Shown: positions 18,237 through 62,505 of the stretch, piece by piece
Layout of the letters: each line of letters begins with the position of its first letter
How positions within the stretch are numbered: the stretch's first letter is position 1
Assembly: GCA_011050675.1 (NCBI GenBank)
Contig: DRFI01000028.1
Span: 62,001-126,000, forward strand
DNA from: Maribacter sp.
GTDB lineage: Bacteria; Bacteroidota; Bacteroidia; Flavobacteriales; Flavobacteriaceae
Direction of reading: 5' to 3'
Length of the DNA stretch: 64,000 nucleotides
Translations under genes and position numbers: made by a program
Notes under the pieces: model-generated
The model's input: the letters and a program-made list of their open reading frames with translations, nothing else
Told to the model about the DNA's origin: nothing
The model's database searches: none

Positions 18237-18289
18237 ATGGTAAACACTAAAGGATTGAATACTAACATTCAATTTTCAACTATGATATT

Positions 18290-27304: not shown

Positions 27305-27339
27305 AAGCCAAATGGTTTTACCTATTTTTTTGATGATAT

Positions 27340-28717: not shown

Positions 28718-28791
28718 ATAAAATGTTTTGAACTCCCAGGGGATTCCCAAGATGTACTGATGAATTTTGAAAAGTTTAGAGATGCAAATTC

Positions 28792-29590: not shown

Positions 29591-32341
29591 ATGAGACCTA
29601 AAAGGTACATTTTCATCTTGTTGAATATTTCTTTGGTTTTTTCCTTTTTCTCGTGTAATCGAAATAAGGACAAAGACAAAATACATATAGGGTTTTCTCA
29701 AGCCATGACCAATGACGATTGGAGGCGTTCCATGAACAACTCGATGAAGTTACAGGCTTCAATGAACCCTGAAATTGATTTACAAATTAAAGATGCTAAT
29801 TACGATGTACTAACACAAATAAAACAGATAGATGAGCTTATTGCAGATAGCGTAGATGTACTAGTTGTCTCGCCTATTCAATCTAAACCTATTACAGCGG
29901 TAGTAAAGAAGGCAATCAAAGCCGGAATTCCCGTTTTGGTGGTGGATAGAAAAACCGAAGGTCAACAATATACTGCCTATGTAGGCGCAGATAATATTGA
30001 AATAGGAAGAAATGCGGCAAAGGAAATAATTGCATCAAACTATAACGATTCCATACGAATTATTGAAATTAAAGGTTTGGCTGGTTCTTCACCTGCCGAA
30101 GAAAGAGCGATTGGTTTTCAACAAGTGTTAGATCAATTTAAAAAGGCCCAAATTGTGGCGACCATTGAAGGGGACTGGGAAAAGGAGTCTATTCAGAACA
30201 GGTTGATACAGCTATTAAATGATGATATTATTGTAGATTACGTATTTGCCCATAACGATAGAATGGCAGTTGGAGCTTGGGAAGTGGCACGTGATTTGGG
30301 AATGGAAAATGAAATCAGTTTTATTGGAGTAGATGGTCTTGCCGGAACTAATGGAGGAATTCAGGCAGTAAAAGATGGAGTTTTAAAGGCAACTGTTCTC
30401 TATCCTACTGGTGGTGATGAAGCCATAAAATTGGCATTGAAAATTTTAAGTAAAGAATCCATTCCCAAGAACAATATACTTTCAACTACCATTATAAATG
30501 AGTTGAATGCGGATATTATGTTCAATCAATTTGAAAAAATCAATGAACAGCAAGCTAAAATGGAGGAACAATTGGCCGCTATAAAAAAACAGGAAGAACT
30601 CTATTATTCTCAAAGTAACCTTCTAAAAATTACGATGGCACTTTTGGCAATTATACTAAGCCTCGCAATATATAGCATCTATTCCATTTTTGCTATTCGA
30701 AAAAAGAACAGACAGCTTGAGTTGACGAATAATAAGATTACTATTCAGCGGAATCAAATTGAAAAAATTGCGAAGGAAATTAAAATCAGTAACGAGGCGA
30801 AATTAAATTTCTTTACAGGACTTTCTCATGAATTTAAAACGCCCATTACGTTAATATTAAGTTCTATTGAATCTATGAGCGATTTTGCTAAGGTGAAAGG
30901 TTCTAAAATTATGAACGAGGTAGAACTCATTTACAATAATTCTAATCGCCTATTGAGATTGATCAACCAATTGCTTGATTTTAGAAAAATTGAAGATCGC
31001 AAGTTTAACATAAAGGCATCAAAAACCAATCTATTCGACTTTTCAAAAATCATTTATAAAGATTTTGAGAGGGAGGCAAAAAAAAGAAATATCGATTTCA
31101 GGTTAAACTCCAATCATGAATCATTGAATGTATTTATAGACAGGAATTTGATGGATAAAGTCTATTTCAACTTACTTTCTAATGCCTTTAAGTTCACGCC
31201 CGATAATGGCAAGATTGGAATTACTATTGAAGATGATGAGCGTAGCAATACCGTTAACATTTGTTTTATGGATTCAGGTATCGGAATACCTAAAAATGAA
31301 ATGGATGGGGTCTTTCAAGCATTTTTTAAAGGATCAAACAATAGAAAAAACAGCTCTGGAATAGGATTGCATTTAAGCAAGGAGTTTGTGGAAATGCACA
31401 AGGGAACTATCCAAGTCAAGTCTTTACATGGAACGGAGTTCATTATAACAATATATAAGGGACAAGCACATTTTGATGAAACAGAAATAATAGCAGAACA
31501 AGATTTGGTAGATACCAATATCATCGATTTTACTTCAGAATATTTGATAGATGATAATTACTTGATTCAGGCACCGAGTAAAAACAAAGAAAAGTACTCG
31601 GTATTGATAATTGAAGACAATAAGGATCTATCACAATTTCTCAAGAACAAATTACAATTAGAGTATGATATTTATCTATCCGATGGCATAGATGCTATTG
31701 AGAAGGCTTTTGAAACTGTCCCCGATATAATACTTTGTGATATCAATCTACCAGATAAAGATGGTTTTGAGATCTGTGAAATTTTAAAAAAGGACTTACG
31801 AACTTCTCACATACCCACTATAATACTTACCGCTTTGGGTAATAAGGAATCTTATATCAAAGGACTTCAATCAGGAGCAGATTTGTATCTGACTAAACCC
31901 TTCAGCTATTCAATTTTGGTTCAGTCAATTAAGTCCTTGCTTTATAATCGAGAGAAACTTCGGTATTACTATACCAGTAACATTCATAAAATTGAAGAAC
32001 TAAATTCCTTTGGGAATATAGAACAAAAATTTATACACCAATTAAATTCCCTTATCAACGAAAATTTGGGGAATTCCGACTATTCGGTTGAAAACCTAGC
32101 TGAAAATCTTACTATTTCAAGGGTTCAACTATACAGAAAGGTAAAGGCGATGATGGGAATTAGTATAAGTGATTACATAGGTAATATCCGATTGGAAAAG
32201 GCTAAAATCATGCTCGAAACGAGTTCTTTAACTGTTGCGGAAATTGCATATGCCAATGGCTTCTCATCTCCAAATTACTTCTCTACGGCCTTTAAAAACA
32301 AATACGGCACATCTCCCGCGGCGTTTCGTAAATCTGTTTAA
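29591..32341 (+). CDS. Hybrid two-component sensor-regulator with periplasmic sugar-binding domain (fructan HTCS)
   Basis: One protein of 916 residues holds a whole signalling path. It has an N-terminal export signal, a LacI/ribose-binding-type periplasmic domain (about 30-330; IHIGFSQAMTNDDWR, VGADNIEIGRNA), one membrane helix (346-368), a histidine kinase with His413 in LSHEFKTPITL, an ATPase domain, a receiver domain with Asp717 (ILCDINLPDKDG) and an AraC DNA-binding domain. BT1754 of Bacteroides thetaiotaomicron has this layout and binds fructose; by analogy this one senses fructose and activates the downstream fructan genes. Confidence 0.9.
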   Translation: MRPKRYIFILLNISLVFSFFSCNRNKDKDKIHIGFSQAMTNDDWRRSMNNSMKLQASMNPEIDLQIKDANYDVLTQIKQIDELIADSVDVLVVSPIQSKPITAVVKKAIKAGIPVLVVDRKTEGQQYTAYVGADNIEIGRNAAKEIIASNYNDSIRIIEIKGLAGSSPAEERAIGFQQVLDQFKKAQIVATIEGDWEKESIQNRLIQLLNDDIIVDYVFAHNDRMAVGAWEVARDLGMENEISFIGVDGLAGTNGGIQAVKDGVLKATVLYPTGGDEAIKLALKILSKESIPKNNILSTTIINELNADIMFNQFEKINEQQAKMEEQLAAIKKQEELYYSQSNLLKITMALLAIILSLAIYSIYSIFAIRKKNRQLELTNNKITIQRNQIEKIAKEIKISNEAKLNFFTGLSHEFKTPITLILSSIESMSDFAKVKGSKIMNEVELIYNNSNRLLRLINQLLDFRKIEDRKFNIKASKTNLFDFSKIIYKDFEREAKKRNIDFRLNSNHESLNVFIDRNLMDKVYFNLLSNAFKFTPDNGKIGITIEDDERSNTVNICFMDSGIGIPKNEMDGVFQAFFKGSNNRKNSSGIGLHLSKEFVEMHKGTIQVKSLHGTEFIITIYKGQAHFDETEIIAEQDLVDTNIIDFTSEYLIDDNYLIQAPSKNKEKYSVLIIEDNKDLSQFLKNKLQLEYDIYLSDGIDAIEKAFETVPDIILCDINLPDKDGFEICEILKKDLRTSHIPTIILTALGNKESYIKGLQSGADLYLTKPFSYSILVQSIKSLLYNREKLRYYYTSNIHKIEELNSFGNIEQKFIHQLNSLINENLGNSDYSVENLAENLTISRVQLYRKVKAMMGISISDYIGNIRLEKAKIMLETSSLTVAEIAYANGFSSPNYFSTAFKNKYGTSPAAFRKSV

Positions 32342-32585: not shown

Positions 32586-33953
32586 ATGAGAAAAATATGG
32601 ATTTGGTCGATTACCGCTGCACTAGCTGGTTTTCTTTTTGGCTTTGATACTGTTGTGATATCAGGTGCTGATAAAAAACTACAGGCCCTATGGCAATCTT
32701 CCGATATGTTCCATGGTACAGTTGTTATGGCAATGGCTTTATGGGGAACCGTGGTAGGTGCAATTTTGGGTGGGATTCCCACGAACAAGATTGGGAGAAA
32801 GAAGACTTTATTATGGATAGGTATACTTTATACATTATCTGCCCTAGGTTCAGCTTTTGCCAATGATCCAATAACTTTCGCAATATTCAGGTTTATTGGT
32901 GGTCTGGGAGTCGGCGCATCAACCATAGCGGCTCCGGCATACATCTCAGAAATAGCTCCGGCAAAAGACCGGGGAAAATTGGTAGGGCTTTATCAGTTTA
33001 ATATCGTATTCGGCATTTTAGTAGCATTCTTATCCAACTACTTGTTAAGCGGTATTGGAGAAAATGCGTGGCGATGGATGATCGGTGTAGAGGCTATACC
33101 TGCATTTATCTATACCCTATTTGTATTAACGGTTCCAAAAAGCCCAAGATGGTTGTTGACCAAAATGCGCACAGACGAAGCAAAAAAAGTATTGCGACTT
33201 ATCAATCCTGATCAAGATCCAGAAGCATTAATGTTAGAGATTAAGACAGAAAGCGAAAACATTGTTTCCGGGGAAAACATATTTATTAAAAAATATAGGT
33301 TTCCGCTCATGTTGGCTTTTTTAATTGCCATGTTCAACCAATTTTCTGGCATCAATGCATTTCTTTATTATGCCCCAAGAATATTCGAAGAAGCAGGTCT
33401 AGGAGAAAGTACGGCACTTTTAAGCAGTATTGGAATAGGAGTGACCAATATGCTTTTTACACTTTTAGGTGTCTTTCTTATTGACCGGCTAGGTAGGAAA
33501 CAACTAATGTATATAGGTTCTGTTGGTTACATAATTTCCCTATCATTAGTAGCTTGTGCTTTTTTCCTTAATTGGGAAGGCATGGCAGTTCCCATTTTCT
33601 TATTTCTCTTTATTGCGGCACATGCCATAGGACAGGGAACAGTAATCTGGGTGTTCATTTCTGAAATCTTCCCAAATCATTTAAGAGGTTCTGGTCAATC
33701 GTTCGGTAGTTCGGTTCATTGGATTTTAGCCGCTATTATACCCTCATTGGTTCCAGTTCTTTTTACCTCCATAGGTGCTGGTACCGTATTCGCCATTTTT
33801 GCTTTTATGATGATTTTACAATTGTTGTTCGTGGCATTTATTATGCCAGAGACCAAGGGAATTTCGCTAGAAGAACTTAGTAATAAACTTATAAAAGGAA
33901 GAAAGAATAGAACAGACGATATCATTGGTCATGCAGAACAGAAAGCAAATTAA
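32586..33953 (+). CDS. MFS sugar porter (fructose-type)
   Basis: This 12-helix inner-membrane symporter of 455 residues has the sugar-porter signatures GFLFGFDTVVISGA, GRKKTLLWIG, RFIGGLGVGASTIAAPAYISEIAP, the QFSGINAFLYYAPRIF sugar-binding helix 7 and PETKG near the end. It probably brings released fructose or sucrose into the cytoplasm. The 244-base gap before it should carry the promoter controlled by the hybrid sensor; I could not fix a -7 element there. Its stop overlaps the GH32 start (TAATG). Confidence 0.9.
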   Translation: MRKIWIWSITAALAGFLFGFDTVVISGADKKLQALWQSSDMFHGTVVMAMALWGTVVGAILGGIPTNKIGRKKTLLWIGILYTLSALGSAFANDPITFAIFRFIGGLGVGASTIAAPAYISEIAPAKDRGKLVGLYQFNIVFGILVAFLSNYLLSGIGENAWRWMIGVEAIPAFIYTLFVLTVPKSPRWLLTKMRTDEAKKVLRLINPDQDPEALMLEIKTESENIVSGENIFIKKYRFPLMLAFLIAMFNQFSGINAFLYYAPRIFEEAGLGESTALLSSIGIGVTNMLFTLLGVFLIDRLGRKQLMYIGSVGYIISLSLVACAFFLNWEGMAVPIFLFLFIAAHAIGQGTVIWVFISEIFPNHLRGSGQSFGSSVHWILAAIIPSLVPVLFTSIGAGTVFAIFAFMMILQLLFVAFIMPETKGISLEELSNKLIKGRKNRTDDIIGHAEQKAN

Positions 33954-35596
33954 TGTTATATAAAGAATTAAAAAGGATGAAAAATAAAATATTCAGGTTC
34001 GCAATAATAATAGGAATTTTTTCAATGGTGGTTTCTTGTAAAAACCCTAAGGAAAAGAACAATGGCCAAGTTCAAAGTGAACAAGATACGCTTGCCAGTT
34101 CAAATGAAGCGTTCTACCGTCCAAATTTCCATTTTACACCAGCTACAGGATGGATGAACGATCCAAATGGAATGTTCTTTTATAACGGATATTACCATCT
34201 CTATTTTCAACATTATCCTGATGGTACCACTTGGGGGCCTATGCATTGGGGGCATGCCATTAGTACCGATCTATTCAATTGGAAAGAGCAACCTATAGCC
34301 TTATACCCAGACGATTTAGGATATATTTTTTCAGGTAGTGCCGTTGTAGACCATGAGAATACATCAGGCTTTGGAGCAGATGGCAAAACTCCTATTGTTG
34401 CAATTTTCACCAGCCATGACCCTAAAAAAGAGAAAACCGGTGAAATAGACGTCGAAAATCAAAGTGTTGCCTATTCGTTAGATGAAGGTCTTACATGGAC
34501 AAAATACAAAGACAATCCAGTTTTAAAGAATCCGGGTGCTAGGGATTTTAGAGATCCTAAAGTTAGTTGGGATGAACAGAAGAAAAGATGGACAATGGTT
34601 TTGGCCGCAGGCCAAGAAATACAATTCTATACCTCAAAGGACTTAAAATCATGGGAGAAACTTACAAGTTTTGGAGAAGGTATCGGTAATCATGATGGCG
34701 TATGGGAATGTCCAGATTTCTTTCAATTACCAATCATTGGCAGTTCAGAAAAAAAGTGGGTTTTGTTGGTAAGTATAAATCCTGGTGGGCCCAATACAGG
34801 TTCGGCCACCCAATATTTTGTAGGTGATTTTGATGGTTCAAATTTTATTTTGGATGAATCATTCAAGCAGGAGATGGGAAAAGAGCATAGTTTCTGGGTA
34901 GATTATGGTCGTGACGATTATGCGGGCGTGACTTTTTCAAATATTGAAAACAAAGATGGTAGTAAGCTATTTATGGGATGGATGTCTAATTGGCTATATG
35001 CCAACGAGGTACCTACTGAAAAATGGCGCAGTGCCATGACAATAGCACGTACGTTAGAATTAACAAAGGGCGAAAATACGTTTCGCTTAGTTGCTAATCC
35101 TGTTCCTGAACTCAATGAATTTGCGAGTGAGAAACTTAAAAATTCCGATGTTCTACTTGAAGGAAAGACCTTGTTGACCACTTCTAAGGCAATCGATTTT
35201 ACACGTGCCCAAATTAACTTTAAAGTAGAAGATTTAGTTGATGGCGTTTACACTTTTGAACTGTCGAACAGTGAAGGAGATAGTTTACGTTTCGGTTTTG
35301 ATGCAACAAAGGATAATTACTTTGTGGATAGAAATAAGGCGGGAATCACTGATTTTTCAAAAAAATTCAGTGACAGGATTGCCATAGCTCCAAAAATCGC
35401 TACTCAAAAGGATTGGACTGGAACAATAGTCCTCGATAAAACTTCCATAGAATTATTTTTTGATGATGGCCAAACCGTAATGACAGAAATATTCTTTCCG
35501 AAAGCCCCATTCGATAGTCTCTATTTTGAGGCTCCATCAGAAGAATCCAAACTCGAATACATAGAAATACATCAACTTAAATTTAACTTAAACTAA
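33953..35596 (+). CDS. GH32 fructan hydrolase lipoprotein (levanase/inulinase/invertase type)
   Basis: GH32 enzymes cut beta-fructosyl bonds. The three catalytic motifs are present: WMNDPNG with nucleophile Asp70, FRDPK with the transition-state Asp201, and WECPD with acid-base Glu252. The five-bladed propeller is followed by the C-terminal beta-sandwich. A lipobox (MVVSCKN) predicts a membrane lipoprotein, periplasmic or surface. The first ATG overlaps the MFS stop; an ATG at 33977 gives a tidier signal peptide. Endo or exo action and inulin or levan preference cannot be read here. Confidence 0.92.
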   Translation: MLYKELKRMKNKIFRFAIIIGIFSMVVSCKNPKEKNNGQVQSEQDTLASSNEAFYRPNFHFTPATGWMNDPNGMFFYNGYYHLYFQHYPDGTTWGPMHWGHAISTDLFNWKEQPIALYPDDLGYIFSGSAVVDHENTSGFGADGKTPIVAIFTSHDPKKEKTGEIDVENQSVAYSLDEGLTWTKYKDNPVLKNPGARDFRDPKVSWDEQKKRWTMVLAAGQEIQFYTSKDLKSWEKLTSFGEGIGNHDGVWECPDFFQLPIIGSSEKKWVLLVSINPGGPNTGSATQYFVGDFDGSNFILDESFKQEMGKEHSFWVDYGRDDYAGVTFSNIENKDGSKLFMGWMSNWLYANEVPTEKWRSAMTIARTLELTKGENTFRLVANPVPELNEFASEKLKNSDVLLEGKTLLTTSKAIDFTRAQINFKVEDLVDGVYTFELSNSEGDSLRFGFDATKDNYFVDRNKAGITDFSKKFSDRIAIAPKIATQKDWTGTIVLDKTSIELFFDDGQTVMTEIFFPKAPFDSLYFEAPSEESKLEYIEIHQLKFNLN

Positions 35597-35602
35597 ACAA
35601 TT

Positions 35603-38600
35603 ATGAAATTAAAACTCTTGCTATTATTAATGGTACTTGTTCCGATAGGTCTGTTGGCCCAGGGACAAATTACAGGTACGGTCACCTCCTCCGATGATGG
35701 TTTTCCTTTACCTGGAACTTCGGTAATTATAAAAGGAACTACAACTGGTACGACCACGGATTTTGATGGTAATTATGAATTGAACAATGTAGCTGGTGAT
35801 GCAACACTTGTCTTTAGCTATATTGGATTTACTAGAATGGAAGTTCCCGTTAACGGCCAATCACAGATAAATGTTTCGCTACAAGAGGACGCACAACAGC
35901 TTGATGAAGTAGTATTGACAGGATATTCCACCGAACGAAAGGTAGATTTAACAGGGGCCGTTACAGTAGTGGATATTGCTCCAATAGAAGGTCAAAGTTT
36001 AAGTTCTGGTAATGCCATGCAGGCTTTACAAGGACGGGTTGGTGGTCTTTTCATTGAAAAATCCGGTGATCCTACCGGTCTAAACAGCAGAATACTAATA
36101 AGAGGACTTACCACTTTAGGGAATAATGATCCGCTATACATCATAGATGGTGTGCCAACAAAACGGCAAGAGGTATTCGCGAGTTTAAATCCTGCGACAA
36201 TAGAATCCATTCAAGTTTTAAAAGATGCTTCGGCCTCTTCAATATATGGGTCAAGAGCTGCAAATGGGGTTATTGTGGTAAGTACAAAAGGTGGTCTTAA
36301 AGGGGAACGTCTTACGGTAAGCATCAATTCCAACCTATCGACTCAATCCGAGCGGAATCAACGTTATGATATGTTGAGTTCCCAACAACGTGGCGAAGCC
36401 TTATGGCGCGCATCCGTAAATGATGGAGCGGACCCAAATGCTGGTTACGGTGAAATATACAATTTTAACTGGAACAATGATTTTACTAATCCAGTTCTTA
36501 ACGGTGTGGCTGTTCAGCCTTTTGTTGGTGGTGATTCAAATGTTCCTGCCGGAGATACCAACTGGCAAGACGAGGTATATGAAACAGGATATGTGTTTAA
36601 TAATGAGGTTACCGTTTCCACAGGTACAGAAAAGTCTTCTTTATTGATTAATCTAGGCTATCTTAAGAATACTGGTATGTTAAAATATACTGGTTATGAT
36701 AGATATACTGCAAAAATTAATGGAACCACTAACCTTTTCAACGACAGGGTAAAATTTGGAGTGAACACACAAATTTCCACATCAAATGAAACATTGGTTT
36801 CAAGTGATGTTGGGGGTGCAGCTACTACAGGTTTGTCAATTACATTGGCACCCACAATTCCGGTATACGATACCAATGGCGAGTTTGCAGGTCCATTAGG
36901 GGCTGGATATTCAGATAGAAATAATCCATTATTGATGCAATATTTGAACAGATGGGACAATGCTACTAAAAATAACTTCTTTGGAAATGTATTTGCTGAG
37001 ATCAGTATTTTAGACAATCTTAAGTTCCGCTCTAGTTTAGGAATAGATTTCAGTGATTTCAAAAGGAAAAATATCGAGCCTAAAGTATTTAACGGGTTTG
37101 TAACAAGAAATAATAATAGGCTGATTTTTGATACCAACAAGTTAAGAACATTAACGTTTTCAAACACCTTGAATTATAATTTGGAAATTGGAAAACACAG
37201 ATTTGGCGCCCTATTAGGTATTGAGACCATAAGAGAGGATTTTGATACCATTTTTGCACAAGCCGATGATTTTGCAGTTGAACAGGAATCCTATTTTGTA
37301 CTTTCTGCTGCTACAGGAGCAAGAACAAATAATGGTATTTCCACGCAATATAGCCTTGCTTCTCAATTTGGAAAATTGAATTATGGATTCGATGATAAAT
37401 ACCTAGCATCCTTTACCATTCGTAGAGATGGTTCTTCAAGATTTGGCGCGAATAATAGATATGGTGTTTTCCCGGCCGCAACATTGGGTTGGAGAATTAG
37501 TCAAGAAGAATTTTTAAAGGATAATGAGTTGATTTCCAATTTAAAGCTTAGGGCGGGTTATGGAGAAGTAGGAAATCAGGAAATCGGTAATACAGCAAGA
37601 TTTGGTTTGTACGAATCAAGATATGGTCAAAACCAAGCACAATTGACAGGAGGATTTTTCGAAATTTATTATAATGTAGGTACTGCCTATGACATTAATG
37701 GTAATAACACAGGTACATTACCTTCAGGATTTGTTTCTACCCAAGCTCCGAACCCTAACTTGAAATGGGAAACTACCAAAGAATGGAACTATGGTATTGA
37801 TTTTGGGTTTTTGAACAATAAAATTAGCGGTTCCTTTGATTATTTTACCAGGGAAACTACGGATATCTTGACTACCCCACCAATTGCATCTGTAATTGGA
37901 GAAGGGCAACAACGGGTATTGAACGGCGCTGCAACGGCTGCTAAAGGATGGGAATTAAATGTTGGATATTCCAATGTTTGGGATAATGGATTTTCTTTAG
38001 GGGTTTCTACAAATTTTGGTGCCTTTAAAGATGAAATCACCTTTCTTCCTGAAGAGGTTAGAGCGGCATTTCCTGGTACTGCTCAAAATTCAATTCTTGG
38101 TCAATCTCAAACTGCGATATTCGGATACAGAACTGACGGACTTTTTCAAAGTCAGGCAGATGTTGATTCCCATCCTACTGGAGGTGTTCAAACGGGTAAC
38201 GCCAGACTAGGTGGTATAAAAATAGTGGATGTAGACAATAATGGCGTTATTGATAGTAATGACCGTGATTTTATTGGTAATACCCTTCCTGATTTGGAGT
38301 ATGGTATTCGATTGGATGTAGGTTACAAAAATTTTGATTTTTCAGTTTTCGGTTCAGGTGTTGCAGGTCGTATAGGAGTTGATTCCTACATTTTCTGGAA
38401 TAATTTTGTTCAGGGAAGGGATAATGCAGGGCTTGGTGTTTTGAATGCTTGGAATCCTCAAAATACAAGTTCTACGATTCCTTCATTATCATTGGTGAAC
38501 AATTTTACGGATACTTCAGACTACATCTTTAGAAACAACTCCTATTTTAAAATAAGAAATTTACAAGTAGGATATTCTTTACCAACTGATATTATCGGTA

Positions 38601-38758
38601 AGATGGCAGGTATGACCGGACTTCGAATCTATTTACAAGGGGAGAATTTATTTTGGTTTACCCCAAAAGGATATATTGGTTCCGATCCAGAAAGAACAGA
38701 CGTAAATAGAATTCCTGTACCTACAGTATATTCAGTAGGCTTGAATATTAACTTTTAA
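35603..38758 (+). CDS. SusC/RagA-type TonB-linked outer-membrane transporter
   Basis: This outer-membrane barrel protein of 1051 residues begins with a signal peptide (LLAQGQ), a carboxypeptidase-D-like domain (ITGTVTSSDDGFPLPGTSVIIKGT), and the SusC plug signature QLDEVVLTGYSTERK...LTGAV. The plug and barrel follow, with the usual SusC blocks (ALQGRVGGL, ILIRG, LYIIDGVP, VLKDASASSIYGSRAANGVIVVSTK). It imports fructo-oligosaccharides with the SusD partner encoded ten bases downstream. Confidence 0.95.
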   Translation: MKLKLLLLLMVLVPIGLLAQGQITGTVTSSDDGFPLPGTSVIIKGTTTGTTTDFDGNYELNNVAGDATLVFSYIGFTRMEVPVNGQSQINVSLQEDAQQLDEVVLTGYSTERKVDLTGAVTVVDIAPIEGQSLSSGNAMQALQGRVGGLFIEKSGDPTGLNSRILIRGLTTLGNNDPLYIIDGVPTKRQEVFASLNPATIESIQVLKDASASSIYGSRAANGVIVVSTKGGLKGERLTVSINSNLSTQSERNQRYDMLSSQQRGEALWRASVNDGADPNAGYGEIYNFNWNNDFTNPVLNGVAVQPFVGGDSNVPAGDTNWQDEVYETGYVFNNEVTVSTGTEKSSLLINLGYLKNTGMLKYTGYDRYTAKINGTTNLFNDRVKFGVNTQISTSNETLVSSDVGGAATTGLSITLAPTIPVYDTNGEFAGPLGAGYSDRNNPLLMQYLNRWDNATKNNFFGNVFAEISILDNLKFRSSLGIDFSDFKRKNIEPKVFNGFVTRNNNRLIFDTNKLRTLTFSNTLNYNLEIGKHRFGALLGIETIREDFDTIFAQADDFAVEQESYFVLSAATGARTNNGISTQYSLASQFGKLNYGFDDKYLASFTIRRDGSSRFGANNRYGVFPAATLGWRISQEEFLKDNELISNLKLRAGYGEVGNQEIGNTARFGLYESRYGQNQAQLTGGFFEIYYNVGTAYDINGNNTGTLPSGFVSTQAPNPNLKWETTKEWNYGIDFGFLNNKISGSFDYFTRETTDILTTPPIASVIGEGQQRVLNGAATAAKGWELNVGYSNVWDNGFSLGVSTNFGAFKDEITFLPEEVRAAFPGTAQNSILGQSQTAIFGYRTDGLFQSQADVDSHPTGGVQTGNARLGGIKIVDVDNNGVIDSNDRDFIGNTLPDLEYGIRLDVGYKNFDFSVFGSGVAGRIGVDSYIFWNNFVQGRDNAGLGVLNAWNPQNTSSTIPSLSLVNNFTDTSDYIFRNNSYFKIRNLQVGYSLPTDIIGKMAGMTGLRIYLQGENLFWFTPKGYIGSDPERTDVNRIPVPTVYSVGLNINF

Positions 38759-38767
38759 TAAATAGCG

Positions 38768-40516
38768 ATGATCATGAAATATAATAAAATAATAACTACA
38801 GTGATATGCGCAACCTTAGTGCTCACTGCCTGTTCCGATAATTATTTAGAATACGAACCAGAAGGTGTTTTGTCCAGTGAAAATGTGGCAACGGCCGAGA
38901 ATGCCGAATCTTTGGTAATTGCCGCATATGCCGGTATTGCAAATGATGAAATGATTGGGCCATTGACCCACCAATGGGTGTATGGCAGTGTACGTTCGGA
39001 TGATGCTTACAAAGGCGGTGGCGGCCGCGGGGATGTTGGAGAGATAGACAGGTACGAGCAATATAATCTTACCATTGCGGATATGGGCGATTTCATGGCC
39101 CCTAGAACTTGGACCGATTTTTATAAAGCAATATCAAGGGCAAACTTTGCACTATCCGTTATCAATGATATCCCTGATGGTGAGTATGCCCAAAAAACGA
39201 CTAGACAAGCAGAATTACGCTTTCTAAGGGCACATTCGCATTTTATGCTCAAATTAATTTTCAAGAAAATTCCATATATCACAGAAAATTTAACCCAAGA
39301 AGAAATTGCACAGACCTCAAATGATGTGGATAATGATGCGTTATGGAATACTATTGCCGAGGACTTTCTTTTTGCCTTTGATAATCTGCCCCAATCACAA
39401 GAACAAGTAGGAAGGGCGGACCGAAATGCTGCAGCGGCTTATTTAGCTAAATTACGACTTTTCCAAGCTTATGAGCAGAATGAACAACACCAAGTAACCA
39501 ATATCAATACTGCACGTTTACAAGAAGTGATTGACTATGTAGATGAAGTTACCGGTAGTCTACAACCGGATTTTGGAGAAAATTTCTTAGATGGTTTTGA
39601 TAATGGTCCAGAATCAATTTGGGCAGCACAATTCTCTATTAATGATGGTACCACCGTAGGAAGGGTAAGTTTTGTGACCGGTTTAAATTCGCCACATGGT
39701 ACAGGGCTTTATGGATGTTGTGGATTTCATTTGGCCAGCCAGAATATAGTTAACTCCTTTAAAACGGATGGTGATGGACTACCGCTTTTGGATACTTTCA
39801 ACGAGGCAGATATATTCACCAATTTAAGTGAAAATGGTACTACTCCACCAGATGCTGGTCTGAGTGTTGACCCAAGGATTGATCATACCGTTGGCATACC
39901 AGGAAGACCTTTTAAATATAGGAACACTGTAAATGATTCAGGAGATATGGTCTATAATTTCAGTTGGGCTCGTGATCCGGGTGTTTATGGATATTTTGGA
40001 AATATGAAAGAACAACAAGCTCCGGATTGTTCTTGCTATGTAAAAGAGGGCCCATTTGTGGGCACATCAAAGAATGTAGATTTCATTAGATATGCCGATG
40101 TTCTCCTTTGGAAGGCTGAAGCCTTGATTCAATTAGATCGATGGGATGAAGCTTTGCCAATAATTAATCAAGTCAGGAATCGTGCGGCAGCAAGCACACA
40201 AAGACCTTTGGATGCTGGCGCAATCGATATCTATGCCATTGGCACATATGACTCGTTTCCATCCAAGGATTTTGCGTGGAAGGCGCTTATGTTCGAAAGA
40301 AGGTTGGAGTTTGCGATGGAGGGTCATAGATGGTATGACCTGGTAAGATGGGGGATTGCGGAAGAAACGCTAAATGCCTATTTGGCGGTGGAAAGGACAA
40401 AAAGAGATTTTCTTGCCAATGCTCAATTTACATCTGGGCGAGATGAATATTATCCGATACCGCAAAGAGAAATTGATTTTACTGGAGGTCTCTATGTTCA
40501 AAACCCAGGATATTAG
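38768..40516 (+). CDS. SusD/RagB-type surface glycan-binding lipoprotein
   Basis: SusD lids the SusC pore and binds the glycan. The protein of 582 residues has a lipoprotein signal (VLTACSDNY), the TPR-rich SusD fold, and the C-terminal blocks VDFIRYADVLLWKAEALIQL, FERRLEFAMEGHRWYDLVRWG and EYYPIPQREIDF...NPGY. ATGs at 38768 and 38774 are both possible. It is the last gene before a strong terminator. No SusE-like third binding protein follows, so the locus is minimal. Confidence 0.95.
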   Translation: MIMKYNKIITTVICATLVLTACSDNYLEYEPEGVLSSENVATAENAESLVIAAYAGIANDEMIGPLTHQWVYGSVRSDDAYKGGGGRGDVGEIDRYEQYNLTIADMGDFMAPRTWTDFYKAISRANFALSVINDIPDGEYAQKTTRQAELRFLRAHSHFMLKLIFKKIPYITENLTQEEIAQTSNDVDNDALWNTIAEDFLFAFDNLPQSQEQVGRADRNAAAAYLAKLRLFQAYEQNEQHQVTNINTARLQEVIDYVDEVTGSLQPDFGENFLDGFDNGPESIWAAQFSINDGTTVGRVSFVTGLNSPHGTGLYGCCGFHLASQNIVNSFKTDGDGLPLLDTFNEADIFTNLSENGTTPPDAGLSVDPRIDHTVGIPGRPFKYRNTVNDSGDMVYNFSWARDPGVYGYFGNMKEQQAPDCSCYVKEGPFVGTSKNVDFIRYADVLLWKAEALIQLDRWDEALPIINQVRNRAAASTQRPLDAGAIDIYAIGTYDSFPSKDFAWKALMFERRLEFAMEGHRWYDLVRWGIAEETLNAYLAVERTKRDFLANAQFTSGRDEYYPIPQREIDFTGGLYVQNPGY

Positions 40517-40571
40517 AGGACTTTATCATTCAAGAAAATTCAGTAATCTGAGTTAGTTGAGTTAGTTTGTA

Positions 40572-40602
40572 AAAGCACGGGGGTTGTTTCCCGTGCTTTT
40601 TT
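40572..40602 (+). terminator. Rho-independent terminator after susD
   Basis: AAAGCACGGG (40572-40581) pairs with CCCGTGCTTT (40590-40599) and is followed by a T run. It closes the MFS-GH32-susC-susD transcript. The kinase gene starts 19 bases further on, so it would depend on readthrough or a weak promoter within the hairpin region. Confidence 0.85.
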
Positions 40603-40620
40603 AATTTGTTGAAAGTAAAT

Positions 40621-41391
40621 ATGGAAATATTAGGTTTGGATATTGGTGGCTCAGGAATTAAAGGAGCCATCGTAGAAACAGAAAACGGGAAATTGATTTC
40701 CGAAAGACTTCGTTTTGCGACTCCGCAGCCTGCACATCCGGAGGCCGTAGCGAAAACCGTTGAAGAATTGGTTCGTCGGTTGAATTGGCAAGGTAATATC
40801 GGATGCAGTTTTCCGATGGTAGTTGTAGATGGTAAATGTATGACAGCGGGAAATATGATGGATGACTGGGTCAATGTACAAGTTGATGAACTCTTTGAGG
40901 CGGCATGTCCGAACACCAAATTCCATCTAGGAAATGATGCTGATTTAGCTGGATTGGCGGAAATGCAATTAGGTGTTGGTAACGGTTTAAAAGGTAAAGT
41001 GATTATGGTAACTATAGGCACCGGTTTGGGGACAGGGGTTTTTTATAATCATATATTAATACCAAATATCGAAATGGGTCGTGTTTTATATGAAAATGGT
41101 GAACCAATTGAATTTTTTGCTTCTGGACTCACAAGGAAAAAAGATAATTTGGAATTGAAAGAATGGGCAGGGCGTTTTGATTACTTCCTTACACATTTGA
41201 AAAGGGTAATGTCGCCAGACCATTTTATAATTGGAGGCGGATTAAGTAAGAAATATAAAAAATTTAGTAGTTACTTATCAGTAGATGTGCCATTACGGGT
41301 GGCACATTTTGAAAATGATGCCGGTATTATTGGCGCAGCACTTTATGCAGAATCTCAACTAAATATTAGTGATCAAATTAATGAATTCTAA
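40621..41391 (+). CDS. ROK-family sugar kinase, polyphosphate-glucokinase-like
   Basis: This cytoplasmic kinase of 256 residues has the phosphate-binding LGLDIGGSGIKGAIVE, the catalytic aspartate in LGNDADLAGLAE and the TIGTGLGTGVFYN loop. The short length and these motifs fit the polyphosphate/ATP glucokinase (PPGK) branch rather than classical ROK fructokinase. It would phosphorylate glucose, or fructose, set free by the GH32 enzyme. The frame opens at a TTG (40606), but the ATG at 40621 is preferred. Confidence 0.82.
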   Translation: MEILGLDIGGSGIKGAIVETENGKLISERLRFATPQPAHPEAVAKTVEELVRRLNWQGNIGCSFPMVVVDGKCMTAGNMMDDWVNVQVDELFEAACPNTKFHLGNDADLAGLAEMQLGVGNGLKGKVIMVTIGTGLGTGVFYNHILIPNIEMGRVLYENGEPIEFFASGLTRKKDNLELKEWAGRFDYFLTHLKRVMSPDHFIIGGGLSKKYKKFSSYLSVDVPLRVAHFENDAGIIGAALYAESQLNISDQINEF

Positions 41392-49121: not shown

Positions 49122-50348
49122 TTATTTAGAAAAATTAATAATTGCGTTTAAAGCTTCATCAGCATTCTTATGAATGAAGTTGCCTTGATAACCTATGGTA
49201 GTGCTTAGATGAGTATGTCGATATAATTTTTGAAGCATTTGCGGAGAAACTTTATCACCGGCTATATTTCCAAAACTATGACGGGCAATGTGATTGGTGA
49301 TTTTTTTGTCGATTTCGGCAAGGTCTGCAATTACAGTTAGGTTCGTATTTAGTCTTTTGATTGAAGTTTTAATTCTAGAGTAAATAGCCTTAGAGTCATT
49401 GATGGGTATTGTCTTAAGTTCTGGAAAAATATAATCGTACTTGTTTTTTTTATCGACTTGGTAATGGGATAAAATTTTAATTACTGGTTCTGGAAGTTTT
49501 AAAGAATCGGCCTTATCGTTCTTACTCATTTTGTAGTATAGCCTTTCAGCCACAATATCACTCCAACGCATTCTTAAGACATCCGAAATCCGGATTCCCG
49601 CTAAATAGAATGAAAAAAGAAAAACGTTTCTAGTATGCCAAACTGCTGTTCTTGTGTCCAAGTCAAGTTCTTCGATTTTTCGAATTTCATGTTCATCAAG
49701 ACCGATTTTAATGGTCTGGGGGTATTTAATCTTTATTTTGTCCTTACCAAAAGGATAGAATTTTCTATCCACAATTTTTCTGCTAATAGCTTTATTGTAT
49801 AGTAATCGAATCATAACGAATATATTCATTACTGAGCGTTCAGATAGTCCTGATGTAGTTCTGAGATAAATTTTTAATTTTTTTAATAAATTCTCATCAA
49901 TTTCCTCAAATTCGAAGTTCCGTTTTTTAGCGAACTCTTTTATCCTGTTCAGTTTGCTTCTATCCGAAATTGCTCTATTATGATTGTTGGCATTGATTAG
50001 ATCTTCAATATGTTCATCGGCAAGTTCGAAAAATGACAACCTTTTTGTGTTTTTCCTAATGGAGTCTATAATCTGTTTTGCTGTATAATTCTGTTTTGAA
50101 GTTTCCATTTCAAATATGACATCTTCAATTTCATCATATTTCTTTCTTATCAGGCGATTCAATTGTTTATGTCTTGTATGGGAAGATTTCACTTTTTCAC
50201 CCTGTACATCCCAAAATTTTGGTTCTACTTTTTGTCCTAAGTAATAATAACTTCGTTTCCGGTTTACAGTGAGTCGTAATGCAAGTCTAAATTCCTTGTT
50301 CCCTTTTGCGTCGGTTTTGGTGTGTAAAACTGTTTTTAAGGTTGCCAT
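49122..50348 (-). CDS. Tyrosine recombinase (integrase) of the island
   Basis: The integrase of 408 residues has an N-terminal arm-binding domain (LKTVLHTKTDAKGNKEFRLALRLT), a SAM-like core-binding domain, and a catalytic domain with Arg in LAGIRISDVLRMRWSD, the HxxR motif HIARHSF, His in LYRHTHLSTT and the nucleophile Tyr in TIGYQGN. An ATG at 50426 extends it, but 50348 (MATLKTVL) is the usual family start and leaves the GTAACACA arm site in the promoter region. It lies next to attR, as expected. Confidence 0.92.
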   Translation of the reverse strand: MATLKTVLHTKTDAKGNKEFRLALRLTVNRKRSYYYLGQKVEPKFWDVQGEKVKSSHTRHKQLNRLIRKKYDEIEDVIFEMETSKQNYTAKQIIDSIRKNTKRLSFFELADEHIEDLINANNHNRAISDRSKLNRIKEFAKKRNFEFEEIDENLLKKLKIYLRTTSGLSERSVMNIFVMIRLLYNKAISRKIVDRKFYPFGKDKIKIKYPQTIKIGLDEHEIRKIEELDLDTRTAVWHTRNVFLFSFYLAGIRISDVLRMRWSDIVAERLYYKMSKNDKADSLKLPEPVIKILSHYQVDKKNKYDYIFPELKTIPINDSKAIYSRIKTSIKRLNTNLTVIADLAEIDKKITNHIARHSFGNIAGDKVSPQMLQKLYRHTHLSTTIGYQGNFIHKNADEALNAIINFSK

Positions 50349-50383
50349 ATCGTACCGATTTTTTATAAAGATAAACATTCGGG

Positions 50384-50402
50384 GTAACACATAGGTAACA
50401 CA
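50384..50402 (+). repeat. Right arm-type site: two GTAACACA repeats
   Basis: GTAACACA at 50384-50391 and 50395-50402, separated by TAG, matches the left copy at 24477-24495, including the extra GG before it. It lies upstream of the preferred integrase start, so integrase binding could also repress its own gene. Confidence 0.65.
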
Positions 50403-50507
50403 TTTTATGGTTTCATAACGATTCATACGAGTATAAATAAAATTATAAACATCTAAAAATCAATATTTTGTATTATTTTGATGTGTTTTGATATGTAGGA
50501 ATGTTGA

Positions 50508-57294: not shown

Positions 57295-60099
57295 ATGATA
57301 TTGAAATCTTATAATAGTATAATTTTTCTTTTTGCACTGTGTATTTCAGCGCAAGAGTTGCCACCAATACAGAATTTTACTCCTATAGAATATAAGGCTG
57401 GTAATCAAAATTGGTCGATAGACCAATCTAATGATAAGTTTATATACTTAGCTAATAACAGCGGGTTGTTAGCGTTTAATGGTATGTCCTGGAAGTTATA
57501 TCAATCTCCTTATGGTACTCCCGTAAAATCTGTAAAGGTTGTTGATGACAGGATTTACACTGGTAGTTATATGGAATTTGGATATTGGAAAGGGAATGAG
57601 TTTGGAGCTCTAAAGTACACTTCAATATCAGCTACATTAAATACTCAGCTTATAGAAGATGAGGATTTTTGGAATATTACTCATTTTAAAGATTGGGTTT
57701 TGTTTCAATCCTTAGATAGAATTTATATCTACAATGTAAAGAACGCTACTTTCGAAATATTGGAGGCAGACACTATAAGCCCTAAAATCTTTGAAATTGG
57801 AAACAAAATATACTTTCAAAAAATAGGTAAAGGTTTATATACGCTAGATCATGGAATACCTATTTTGGTGTCTGATGACCCTATTCTTAAGAATACGGGA
57901 GTAGTTGGTGCTTTTCAAGCTAAAAATAAAATTCTAGTAATTACAGAACTAGGGGAGTTTTTTTATTTAGAAGACACCAATCTAATAAAATGGGAAATAC
58001 CAGCGGAAGTGGATTTATCTACAACCAAAATCCATAGCACTTTACGCCTGTATGATGGCTCTTTTATATTGGGAACAATATCAAAAGGTATCTTTCATTT
58101 AGATACAAATGGGTTGTTGATAAGGCATATTAACCAGGGAAAAGGGCTGAACAACAATACTGTATTGTCATTATTTCAAGATTATGACCATAACCTATGG
58201 CTGGGGCTAGATAACGGTGTAACCGTCATAAATTTAGATTCGCCTTTTAAAGAATATATAGACCACGTTGGTGCTATTGGAGTTGTTTATACTGCTAAGA
58301 AAGTAGGTGGTATTTTGTATTTAGGTACTAATCAAGGTCTATTTTATAGAAGAACCATTGGGGTAGATGAGTTTCAACTTGTAAACGGTACACAAGGTCA
58401 AGTTTGGTTATTAAAAGAAATTGACGGTACATTGTTCTGTGGTCATCATAACGGTACTTATGCTATTGAAAATGAAAAAGCAATTAAGATTTCGAATGAT
58501 CCGGGAACTTGGGATATTCAATCATTAGAAAACCATGAGGATTTATTGATACAAGGAACCTATAAAGGTTTAAGTGTACTGGAAAGAAAAAATAACCAAT
58601 GGCAATACCGTAATAATATAGAAGGATTTGATAATTCTAGTAGGTTTATTGAATTTGTAGGGGAGCATCATTTACTTGTAAATCATGATTATAAAGGAAT
58701 ATTCGACCTAATTGTTGATTCAGAATTCACTAAAGTAGTAGAAAGTGATCATAAAGAATCTAAAGGAACAGGTTCAAGTTTGGTTAGGTATAGCGATGAA
58801 ATTGTTTACAGCACTATAAACGGAGTTTTTAAATATAATGTGGAAAAAAATGATTTCCTGAAGGATTCTGTATTGACCAATAAATTTTTTAATGCTGATG
58901 AGAGTATTGTGGGGATACTACAATCAACCAATAATTCAGAAAGACTTTGGGGATTTACAAATGATAATATAATTAGTGTTTCAAACGGACACTTAAGTAA
59001 AGAGCCAGAACTAATAAAAATTTCAATCCCTAATTTCTTTAGAAGAAGTATGGGTGTCTTGGGTTTTGAATCTGTGGTTCATTTGGAAAAAGAGCTTTAT
59101 TTAATTGGTATTTCTAATGGTTACGTCACTTTAGATTTACAAAAAGTAGAACAGAAGGATAATCAAATTCATATTAACTCTATTTATAGAGAACCCCACG
59201 AAAACCCTAAGGTGGATATTGAACTTAAAGGTTCTCAAGAATTTCAATATTCAGAGAATAATATAAATTTTGAGTACAATGTTACCGAGTATGATAAGTA
59301 TACAGTGGTGTATTACCAATATAAATTAGACGAGTTGTATGATGAATGGAGTAGTTGGTCAACAGTACCGAATGTTTCGTTTGACAATTTACCTTATGGT
59401 TCTTATGAATTTAAAGTAAGGGCTAGGTTTGGTAATGAGTTATCTAAAAACATAGCCACTTATTCGTTTACTATACAGCGACCTTGGTATATTACCTACT
59501 GGGCAATTTTCTGTTACACTTTACTTGGGTTTCTACTTTCTTTTTTGATTCATAAAATATATAAGAACTATTATAAAAGACAGCAGCAACAACTTATAAA
59601 AGACAACCTAAGGCTTTTAAAGCGTAAAAAGTTAAAGAACCAAAAGAAAATTGTTCAAATTAAAAATGAGCAATTACAAGAGCTAATTGAAAGTAAGAAT
59701 AGAGAATTGGCAATATCTACAATGAGTATTATTAAGAAGAATGAATTTTTAAATTCAATCAAAGACAAGCTCAGAAGTAGTGATCAAAATCCGCAAATAA
59801 AATCAGTTATTAAAACTATAGATAGAAATATTAATAACGCTGACGATTGGGAGTTCTTTGAAAATGCTTTTAATAATGCTGATAAAGACTTTTTGAAAAA
59901 TGTAAAAGATAAGCATCCAGATTTATCAGCGAATGACTTACGATTATGTGCTTACTTACGATTGAATTTGTCCTCTAAGGAAATTGCTCCACTTTTAAAT
60001 ATATCAGTTAGAAGCGTAGAAGTGAAAAGGTATCGTTTACGAAAAAAAATGAACTTAGCGCATGAAGCTGGTTTAACGGAGTATATCCTCAATTTATAA
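57295..60099 (+). CDS. Propeller sensor with Y_Y_Y domain and LuxR-type DNA-binding domain
   Basis: This one-component-like membrane regulator has 934 residues. After a signal peptide (CISAQE) come beta-propeller repeats (about 25-600; LSLFQDYDHNLWLGLDNGV), the Y_Y_Y domain (INFEYNVTEYDKYTVVYYQYKL...SYEFKVRARF), one membrane helix (about 735-755), a coiled coil, and a C-terminal LuxR-like HTH (LSANDLRLCAYLRLNLSSKEIAPLLNISVRSVEVKRYRLRKKMNL). There is no kinase. It is 309 bases upstream of the GH16 gene on the same strand and is the likely regulator of laminarin use. Confidence 0.9.
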   Translation: MILKSYNSIIFLFALCISAQELPPIQNFTPIEYKAGNQNWSIDQSNDKFIYLANNSGLLAFNGMSWKLYQSPYGTPVKSVKVVDDRIYTGSYMEFGYWKGNEFGALKYTSISATLNTQLIEDEDFWNITHFKDWVLFQSLDRIYIYNVKNATFEILEADTISPKIFEIGNKIYFQKIGKGLYTLDHGIPILVSDDPILKNTGVVGAFQAKNKILVITELGEFFYLEDTNLIKWEIPAEVDLSTTKIHSTLRLYDGSFILGTISKGIFHLDTNGLLIRHINQGKGLNNNTVLSLFQDYDHNLWLGLDNGVTVINLDSPFKEYIDHVGAIGVVYTAKKVGGILYLGTNQGLFYRRTIGVDEFQLVNGTQGQVWLLKEIDGTLFCGHHNGTYAIENEKAIKISNDPGTWDIQSLENHEDLLIQGTYKGLSVLERKNNQWQYRNNIEGFDNSSRFIEFVGEHHLLVNHDYKGIFDLIVDSEFTKVVESDHKESKGTGSSLVRYSDEIVYSTINGVFKYNVEKNDFLKDSVLTNKFFNADESIVGILQSTNNSERLWGFTNDNIISVSNGHLSKEPELIKISIPNFFRRSMGVLGFESVVHLEKELYLIGISNGYVTLDLQKVEQKDNQIHINSIYREPHENPKVDIELKGSQEFQYSENNINFEYNVTEYDKYTVVYYQYKLDELYDEWSSWSTVPNVSFDNLPYGSYEFKVRARFGNELSKNIATYSFTIQRPWYITYWAIFCYTLLGFLLSFLIHKIYKNYYKRQQQQLIKDNLRLLKRKKLKNQKKIVQIKNEQLQELIESKNRELAISTMSIIKKNEFLNSIKDKLRSSDQNPQIKSVIKTIDRNINNADDWEFFENAFNNADKDFLKNVKDKHPDLSANDLRLCAYLRLNLSSKEIAPLLNISVRSVEVKRYRLRKKMNLAHEAGLTEYILNL

Positions 60100-60408: not shown

Positions 60409-62505
60409 ATGAAAAAATTTAAGTACTTGGTCGTAGCATTGTTTGCGATTTTAATGAGCTGTGATGGTGATGATATTGATATCCCAGAGTCAGTTTTACC
60501 AACCAATCTTATGGTAACTTCTATAAATGTGGGTGATGGAACGGTAAATTTTACTGCTTCGGCTACCAATGCGAATTATTATCATTTCGATTTTGGAGAT
60601 GGTAGTTCTGCTTTGAATAATGAAGGTGTTGCTTCCAAAACCTATGATATGATAGGGGATAACACTTATACCGTTAAGGTAACTGCAGGTTCCTCTCAAG
60701 GAAAAACAACATCAGAAACAATTGATATTACTGTTTCAGTTGCTTTTACGGATCCTGTAACTGTAGGATTTTTAACAAATGAGGATTCTAAAACCTGGTT
60801 TTTAGCAGCCTCACAACCTGGGCATTTAGGACTAGGTCCGGCTAGAGAAGGTATTGATGGTGATTGGTGGTATCCTAAGTGGTTTTCTGCATCTGCATTT
60901 GAAAAATGTGGAACTGAAGATTCTGATTGTCTTTGTGATGATGAGCTTACGTTTTCAGTTGATGCTAACGGTTCTATATCCTACACATTAGATAACAAAG
61001 GTCAAACATACTTTAATGTAGGACACAAGGCAGTTGTCGGTGGCGCTGAAGATATTGATTTTTGCTATGATTTTGATACATCTGGGGTGAAGTCTGTAGT
61101 ACTTTCGGAAGTAGCAGGAAATGTACCTGAAGACCAAACTACGGGAATTCAAATGAATTTTTCTGACGATGGATTTATGGGGTATTATGTTGGGTCATCT
61201 ACCTATGAAATACTTTTTATTAGCGATACTGAATTATATGTTAGAACATATGACACGGAGAATGCTGATTTAGCATGGTATCATAAATTTACATCTGCTG
61301 CTGTAGTTGATGGAGGTGATGAGGAGAGTTTAGAGACCATTTATACTAACTTAGTATGGTCTGATGAATTTGATGTCGATGGTGCACCTGACGCTGCAAA
61401 TTGGACTTATGACCTAGGAGCAGGAGGCTGGGGTAATGGTGAAGCTCAAGAATACACAAATAAAGCAGATAATGTAATTGTGGAAGATGGTGTTCTTAAA
61501 ATTACGGCACGTGGTTCTGGTGCTGTAGGCGGTGCAGTTCATTATTATGATGATGTTACCTTGGTTGCATCTGGCGGAGAAACTTCTAGTATAGAAGATT
61601 TTGAAGGTGATGCACCTGTATTTACAGATTTTGGCGGTGTTTCAACTGCTGTAATTGATAATCCAGATGCATCTGGTTTAAATACATCAGGTACAGTTGG
61701 GGAATCTACTAAAAATAGCGGTGCCGAGGTATGGGGCGGATCTTTCTTTGATATTACTACGCCATTAGATTTAGCAACGTATTCTAGTATGGAGATTAAG
61801 ACTTGGTCACCTGCGACAGGTGCGGTGGTTCGATTGAAAATTGAAAATCAGGCAAATGCAGATGAGTTTTTTGAAGTAGATGCTAGTACATCAGTTGCAG
61901 AAGCTTGGGAGACTTTAACTTTTGATCTAAGTACTGCTCCTGCTTTTAATTATGATAGGGTAGTATTGTTCTTTGATTTCGGAGTTAGTCCTTCAGGTGA
62001 TGCGGCATATACGTCTGCAAGAATTAAGTCTGAGAATTTATTTGAATTCACTTACGGTAGGGTAGAAATTAGAGCAAAACTTCCTTCAGCTGGTGGTACT
62101 TGGCCTGCGCTTTGGGCTTTAGGTGCTAATTTTGATGAAGTTGGATGGCCTGCAACAGGTGAAATAGATATTATGGAGCACGTAGGTAATAATAACAATA
62201 CAATTAGTAGTGCGTTACATTATCCTGGTAATTCTGGAGGTAATGCCATTGTAGGTACTACATCTGTAGAAACTGCAATTTCAGAATTTCATAACTATAC
62301 CGTAGAATGGACTCCAGATAGCATAAAGTTTGTTGTTGATGGTGAGCTTGTTCATAATAGTTTGGTGAATAATGCAACTACCCCTTTTAATAGTGATTTC
62401 TTTCTTATCATGAATGTAGCAATGGGTGGTACACTTGGTGGAGCAATTGATTCTGAATTTACAGAAGATACTATGGAGGTTGATTATGTAAGGGTATACC
62501 AATAA
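60409..62505 (+). CDS. GH16 laminarinase-like lipoprotein with nested CBM-like domain
   Basis: GH16 enzymes of this type cut beta-1,3-glucan (laminarin). The 698-residue lipoprotein (lipobox ILMSC, Cys18) has a PKD domain (about 30-110), a beta-rich domain common in Bacteroidota glucan proteins (115-300; TWFLAASQPGHLGLGP), then GH16. The catalytic motif GEIDIMEHVG gives nucleophile Glu585 and acid-base Glu590. Between ITAR (about 365-368) and YTSARIKSE (534 on), some 165 residues of CBM-like sequence interrupt the GH16 fold. The order of strands inside that insert looks permuted. The gene ends at a strong terminator. Confidence 0.9.
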   Translation: MKKFKYLVVALFAILMSCDGDDIDIPESVLPTNLMVTSINVGDGTVNFTASATNANYYHFDFGDGSSALNNEGVASKTYDMIGDNTYTVKVTAGSSQGKTTSETIDITVSVAFTDPVTVGFLTNEDSKTWFLAASQPGHLGLGPAREGIDGDWWYPKWFSASAFEKCGTEDSDCLCDDELTFSVDANGSISYTLDNKGQTYFNVGHKAVVGGAEDIDFCYDFDTSGVKSVVLSEVAGNVPEDQTTGIQMNFSDDGFMGYYVGSSTYEILFISDTELYVRTYDTENADLAWYHKFTSAAVVDGGDEESLETIYTNLVWSDEFDVDGAPDAANWTYDLGAGGWGNGEAQEYTNKADNVIVEDGVLKITARGSGAVGGAVHYYDDVTLVASGGETSSIEDFEGDAPVFTDFGGVSTAVIDNPDASGLNTSGTVGESTKNSGAEVWGGSFFDITTPLDLATYSSMEIKTWSPATGAVVRLKIENQANADEFFEVDASTSVAEAWETLTFDLSTAPAFNYDRVVLFFDFGVSPSGDAAYTSARIKSENLFEFTYGRVEIRAKLPSAGGTWPALWALGANFDEVGWPATGEIDIMEHVGNNNNTISSALHYPGNSGGNAIVGTTSVETAISEFHNYTVEWTPDSIKFVVDGELVHNSLVNNATTPFNSDFFLIMNVAMGGTLGGAIDSEFTEDTMEVDYVRVYQ

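Follow-up and report, generated by a model that had tools for sequence, protein, structure and literature searches.

A predicted circularly permuted CBM unit of tandem-array type nested in the GH16 domain of a Maribacter laminarinase-type lipoprotein

The gene at positions 60409 to 62505 of the window (the whole stretch of 64,000 nucleotides analysed here) encodes a GH16 laminarinase-type lipoprotein whose catalytic domain is interrupted by 166 residues, and homology searches showed this insert to be a single unit of a carbohydrate-binding module (CBM) family that mostly forms tandem arrays elsewhere. Judged by its strand order, the insert is a predicted circularly permuted relative of the laminarin-binding X584 kind (PDB 8qx6) and not a canonical member. 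Our explanation as a whole, that a permuted, array-derived CBM unit was grafted onto a GH16 hairpin and binds laminarin beside the catalytic domain, is one that we regard as probable. The interruption itself is already published (PMC11345257); the array-CBM identity of the insert and its permuted wiring are what is added. The gene and its parts are as follows, all on the forward strand.

60409..62505 (+): whole gene, a 698-residue GH16 laminarinase-type lipoprotein with nested CBM (Pfam Glyco_hydro_16, E 3.2e-25)
60409..60462 (+): lipoprotein signal peptide with Cys18, the lipobox recognised by eye; the Maribacter forsetii homologue has a comparable published layout (available text of PMC11345257)
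60538..60735 (+): PKD-like domain, residues about 44-109 (PKD_4 match)
60736..61308 (+): middle domain, residues about 110-300, limits by eye
61342..61509 (+): first part of GH16, residues 312-367, ending LKITA (PDB and profile comparison)
61510..61533 (+): N-side junction (putative hinge), residues 368-375 (AlphaFold2 pLDDT 80, block 365-374)
61534..61569 (+): putative moved strand AVHYYDDVTLVA, residues 376-387, the last strand in a native unit and the first here
61570..61581 (+): short turn SGGE, residues 388-391, putative former inter-unit linker site (pLDDT 97, blocks 385-404)
61588..61983 (+): CBM core from SIEDFEG to FFDFG, residues 394-525 (CBM profile match; homology to 8qx6)
61984..62007 (+): C-side junction (putative hinge) VSPSGDAA, residues 526-533 (pLDDT 68, block 525-534)
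62008..62502 (+): second part of GH16, residues 534-698 (PDB and profile comparison)
62020..62022 (+): Arg538, which by its register would match Arg71 of ULam111
62161..62178 (+): catalytic motif EIDIME, residues 585-590 (sequence)

The split GH16 domain and its insertion site

Pfam analysis of the whole protein restricted the GH16 match to residues 534-694, and a phmmer search against the PDB aligned both residues 312-367 and residues 533-698 to one laminarinase chain, 4bq1. The best PDB laminarinase matches of the catalytic domain reached E values down to 1.1e-52 and the ExDxxE motif of GH16 is present as EIDIME; the product is probably an enzyme that cuts algal laminarin. We use the subfamily label GH16_3 after PMC11345257, whose available text gives endo-β-1,3-glucanase activity just indirectly for Maribacter.

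LKITA ends at nucleotide 61509 and YTSARI starts at 62008, which places the insert at 61510-62007 (residues 368-533). The preliminary description had put an insert of about 165 residues at 61510-62010, in a catalytic loop of one GH16 fold; its limits are hereby refined, and its placement inside one GH16 fold agrees with the alignment of both flanks to 4bq1. By HMM matches in loci L031-L110, the two GH16 parts were separated by 6-13 residues (median 9) in all 87 plain proteins, counting only those with an essentially whole second GH16 part, and by 163-171 residues (median 166) in all 21 nested proteins. Plain relatives carry a short loop at this place (for example LKITAKAAGGSYTSAR in the Lacinutrix locus L052), and the comparison showed the insertion site to be the tip of one GH16 hairpin (LKITA / YTSARI) in these proteins. 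The PDB alignment and the gap counts thus place the CBM within one catalytic domain. An insert universal in the subfamily, which the preliminary description had named as counting against its reading, was not seen: the 87 plain relatives lack it.

An AlphaFold2 model of residues 305-698, using 87 of the 137 alignment rows listed, had a mean pLDDT of 93.3 and a pTM of 0.74. Foldseek comparison of this nested model with GH16 laminarinases gave a TM score by target of 0.81-0.91 in 13 of the top 15 matches, the other two being multidomain chains at 0.44-0.45, and with alignments of about 390-410 columns a single β-jelly-roll is predicted to be re-formed from both GH16 parts.

The N-terminal PKD_4 match scored 25.4 bits on the whole protein, below the Pfam cut-off of 27, and 27.3 bits on the N-terminal part alone. 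Residues 8-295, comprising the PKD part and the middle domain, resembled PDB chain 7kv5, titled 'PKD domain protein' (E 2e-18), and residues about 110-300 matched no Pfam family at E 1 except PKD and one chance-level match. The middle domains (60736-61308 in the window) of Maribacter-type and Croceivirga-type proteins were strongly divergent in alignment. Directly upstream of the laminarinase gene, positions 57295-60099 encode a regulator-like protein with a Y_Y_Y domain (Pfam E 3.3e-7) and, by eye, a helix-turn-helix-like C-terminus, which may regulate the laminarinase gene.

Identity, strand order and likely role of the insert

When the insert was used as query, matches were found in 140 of 299 sampled family genomes at E 0.001, and its own genome held no match besides itself at E 0.01. 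Among the CBM open reading frames without GH16 in the 140 loci compared, 91 had two or more units and 29 had one, which are rough counts as some of the loci are short or overlapping. One array period equals one insert length and the homology is contiguous over the full period; in one array protein, for example, positions 2-158 of 159 were aligned at 57% identity (E 9.5e-55). PDB 8qx6, a chain titled "Novel laminarin-binding CBM X584", was the sole chain found with the array profile (E 2.3e-18) and matched the insert alone at E 8.7e-5; it aligns with the array profile in native order, with FYIDDIEQ at its end. The array homology and the 8qx6 match bear out the earlier reading of the insert as a CBM-type unit. 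Pfam and NCBIfam searches of the whole protein found nothing in the insert except stretches starting within its last residues; for the insert alone, Pfam returned sub-threshold matches only, the best being CBM_35_2 (E 0.077). CBM102 and CBM103 were reportedly founded on modules of the laminarin-binding 8qx6 kind in a 2024 paper. Searches of the open-licence literature found nothing on CBM102/CBM103 or 8QX6, and on X584 nothing relevant beyond PMC11345257.

The strand order was examined against the ends of native arrays. Multi-unit arrays of loci L052-L110 stopped no more than four residues from the end of the CBM match in 46 of 58 cases, with C-termini such as DDSVYYYDELELKN and a last strand that reads YYFDDI or alike. 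A profile of this last strand, built from the 46 array tails cut by regular expression (at least one of them mis-cut), gave its best score at the insert start (VHYYDDVTL) in all 22 nested proteins including that of the window, where it ranked first of the 689-844 positions per protein with scores of 5.2-27.4, the next best score in any protein being at most 3.9. Nothing comparable followed FFDFG, as the profile score was at most 3.9 in the following 22 residues of the 22 proteins. The native order is SIEDFEG, FFDFG and YYFDDI and that of the insert is YYDDV, SIEDFEG and FFDFG, which therefore points to a circular permutation: the YYFDDI-type strand that comes last in the native order comes first here. 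The preliminary description had proposed that the insert starts with the last strand of a CBM, lacks that strand at its end and represents one tandem-array period in shifted phase, and the profile ranks, the strand order and the period length agree with each of these proposals.

The nested model was firm over the moved strand (376-387), the strand after it (392-396) and the four-residue turn joining the two, with pLDDT of 93-97 over the moved strand and the former linker; the junction blocks had values of 80 and 68, and further low loop blocks were residues 335-344 (74) and 435-444 (83). A model of a native two-unit array (L052, 45 rows; pLDDT 94.6, pTM 0.61) gave 68 in the inter-unit linker block and 97-98 in the last hairpin. 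The predicted pattern is thus mirrored, with a weak linker and a firm hairpin in the array, and a firm former linker and an opened hairpin that has become the hinge in the insert, which fits a permutation. A non-permuted fold, named in the preliminary description as a refuting outcome, left no sign in the model of residues 305-698. A rigid continuous β-ribbon at the junction was considered and rejected because of the low pLDDT at both junctions. In the Foldseek search with the array model, the first matches were a tandem CBM22 and a surface glycan-binding protein; 8qx6 came 27th (TM by target 0.68) and CBM11 39th, in a list that held many unrelated β-sandwiches. We propose that the permuted unit would fold as one β-sandwich whose native ends are joined by the old linker, and that the CBM would hang from the GH16 domain by two short hinges.

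Across 127 array units, 34 columns were conserved at a level of 85% or more; with the inserts reordered to native order, 29 of these columns had the same residue in 19 or more of the 21 inserts. The dN/dS of the insert was 0.08-0.20 in five of six pairs of the window with relatives and undefined in one, and that of the second GH16 part was 0.03-0.08 in five pairs, several dS values being near saturation. Taken from these ratios, the insert is apparently under strong purifying selection. The M. forsetii GH16_3 of the same build is described as upregulated on laminarin, and its insert was suggested to bind laminarin from similarity to BfSGBP-B (available text of PMC11345257). Laminarin binding by the present insert is likely because of the low dN/dS, the 29 of 34 columns kept and this upregulation.

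As to position, Arg538 lies five residues past the insert and would correspond to Arg71 of ULam111 by register, being 27 residues ahead of the first Trp of WPALW (taken as Trp98), and residue 533 aligns with residue 66 of 5wut. Arg71 is given among the residues that may hydrogen-bond sugar in the available text of PMC5595797, which also describes strands β4 and β5 as facing away from the cleft, in a strand numbering unmatched to the LKITA/YTSARI hairpin. The correspondence of Arg538 to Arg71 suggests that the insert may be located near the cleft rim. The preliminary description further considered that it may bind glucan as part of the active site. In our reading the unit would most likely bind laminarin adjoining the catalytic domain and feed or hold the chain, in the manner of a surface glycan-binding unit that acts in cis.

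Other readings of the insert can be weighed against these data. If VHYYDDVTLV were a new or GH16-derived strand on the catalytic sheet, the CBM core would simply lack its last strand and no permutation would have occurred, but the last-strand profile picks this very place in 22 of 22 proteins, plain GH16 relatives hold just 6-13 residues there in 87 of 87, and the pLDDT of 93-97 extends across the strand and the old linker, so that we consider this very unlikely. Hinged inserts can swap, and the moved strand might complete the CBM of a second molecule to give a strand-swapped dimer; against a closing turn of about four residues and its high pLDDT in a single-chain model, such an arrangement appears extremely improbable. 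It is also conceivable, albeit unlikely, that the permuted CBM fold serves as a structural decoration that no longer binds sugar and acts to stabilise or space the enzyme, for which it can be said that, among the 34 array-conserved columns, 5 have another residue in at least three of the 21 inserts; the low dN/dS of the insert, the 29 columns kept and the retention of the insert across several genera argue otherwise.

Distribution and origin of the nested form

Matches spanning the junction were found in at least 12 of 397 family genomes and at least 4 of 395 order genomes (both among the matches listed), in 2 of 395 phylum genomes, both of them Flavobacteriaceae, and in 15 of 36 genus genomes, the genome samples of the four ranks overlapping. 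Among named genomes the best 80 of 324 confirmed relatives were kept, and the first 21 of these were nested; over the junction region the nearest named relative among these best 80 was Maribacter stanieri, with 92% identity. A plasmid search gave partial matches in 280 records; coverage of the query stayed below 80% in every one and was 32-38% in the ten listed. Further CBM matches at E 1e-20 occurred in 2 of 12 nested genomes, compared with any CBM match in 111 of 385 other family genomes (among the matches listed), and at E 1e-5 in 1 of 15 nested genomes of the window's genus. The idea that nested genomes no longer keep the free array was dropped, as there was no clear exclusion.

In 57 of the 59 array loci a CBM gene ends no more than 2 kb upstream of a GH16 gene, and in 32 of the loci the distance is 400 nt or less; the sample is biased because loci L052-L110 were found through the CBM. 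In two Croceivirga-type loci (L050 and L051) an array, a nested GH16 and a plain GH16 gene stand in a row, and an array was found in the flank of 2 of the 21 named nested loci, the flank being short in some. The GH16 domain begins past residue 290, as in nested proteins, in 30 of the 84 plain rows of a 104-row GH16 tree, counted by start position only. Intermediate forms between array or plain and nested proteins were not seen among the relatives compared. It may be proposed that one array period was excised at an identical hairpin turn in two consecutive copies and then grafted onto the GH16 hairpin; its source may have been the array gene frequently found upstream of plain GH16 relatives. 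Only tentatively do we extend this to a hairpin-to-hairpin graft from an array into a neighbouring enzyme gene, in which the linker would end up within a domain core and the binding unit would form a hinged lid over the cleft, as a general route to permuted, doubly tethered domains.

The GH16 tree was calculated from 104 rows and then from 56 of those, with three long-branch rows left out on purpose, and contained two nested groups, one of Maribacter, Zobellia and Eudoraea adjoining Lacinutrix, Polaribacter and Lutibacter, and one of Croceivirga and Croceitalea near Nonlabens. In the 56-row tree two groups were better than one by a log-likelihood of 21.9 and one group appeared in 0% of 200 bootstrap trees, and a single nested clade was not rejected (AU p 0.129). 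The insert tree was calculated from 179 units passing score filters and then from 63, with two long-branch rows left out. The 179-unit tree placed the inserts beside Lacinutrix and Polaribacter array units (100/96), with the Croceitalea insert (L049) apart from the others; the 63-unit tree grouped the inserts weakly (77/58). In both trees the array units of Croceivirga, though adjoining its nested gene, were not nearest to its insert.

This outcome can be interpreted as one insertion with later exchange or as two captures. Separate captures in the Maribacter/Zobellia/Eudoraea and Croceivirga/Croceitalea lines, each into that one hairpin and in an identical phase, would agree with the separation of the groups in the GH16 tree, with the failure of one group to appear among the 200 bootstrap trees and with the two changes also required on the 104-row tree. 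We hold such a double origin to be rather doubtful, as the AU test leaves one clade unrejected, the inserts group together weakly beside the Lacinutrix and Polaribacter array units, and the place and phase of the junction are the same in both lines, which one event followed by exchange of the GH16 part would also give.

Two further arrangements of the module were seen. In Aquimarina latercula (L096:14710-16542) the same CBM type is placed after GH16 as a non-nested counterpart, and a Chitinophagaceae metagenome-assembled genome (L106:4857-11369) has an open frame of 2171 residues with 12 matches to the same CBM, adjoining GH16 genes.

Relation to known systems and other loci of the window

The M. 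forsetii GH16_3 appears by description to belong to the same family, having a PKD domain, a laminarin-binding N-terminus and a GH16 domain interrupted after β-sheet 5 by a 'domain of unknown function', a layout common to 57 homologues (PMC11345257). In the available text of that paper the insert is unassigned to a known domain, and neither a tandem-array CBM nor a permutation is mentioned. Searches of the open-licence literature on GH16 or glycoside hydrolases together with CBM insertion or permutation likewise returned neither the CBM identity nor the permutation, as judged by titles and abstracts. The present analysis gives a name to the domain interrupting these Maribacter laminarinases.

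PDB 8qx6 is homologous to both the array units and the insert, but it is a 165-residue chain in native strand order in the alignment and is not nested. The tandem-CBM proteins beside Bacteroidota GH16 genes (for example in Lacinutrix, L052) have the same unit with mostly the same conserved columns and often lie upstream of a plain GH16 gene; in contrast to the insert, their units are joined head to tail, in native phase, and do not form part of an enzyme. This relationship points to a way in which enzymes could acquire permuted units from repeat arrays.

Partial parallels exist in other enzymes. EngU, a GH148 enzyme with an inserted CBM4, also has a functional CBM nested in its catalytic module, but it is a TIM barrel and permutation is not described in the available text (PMC5725463). 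CE20 esterases likewise have a β-sandwich inserted in the catalytic domain, which there helps to form the active site, although enzyme class and insert are different and the linker is helical (PMC12313940). MalS of GH13_19 shares circularly permuted domains within a glycoside hydrolase, but is an α-amylase with no nested laminarin CBM as far as described (PMC10223318). The nested unit described here represents a natural design for a binding module tethered to a catalytic domain at both ends.

Elsewhere in the window, positions 32586-41391 likely form a fructan utilisation locus, with a GH32 gene (Pfam E 3.6e-92) and, by eye, genes for an MFS-type sugar transporter, SusC-like, SusD-like and sugar-kinase-like proteins; upstream of it, 29591-32341 encodes a hybrid of sugar-binding, histidine-kinase and response-regulator parts (by eye). 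Toprim/primase-like, helicase-like and tyrosine-recombinase-like genes at 26423-28750 and 49122-50426 look by eye like parts of mobile elements. At 10916-18272, an Omp85-family gene adjoins a TamB gene (Pfam).
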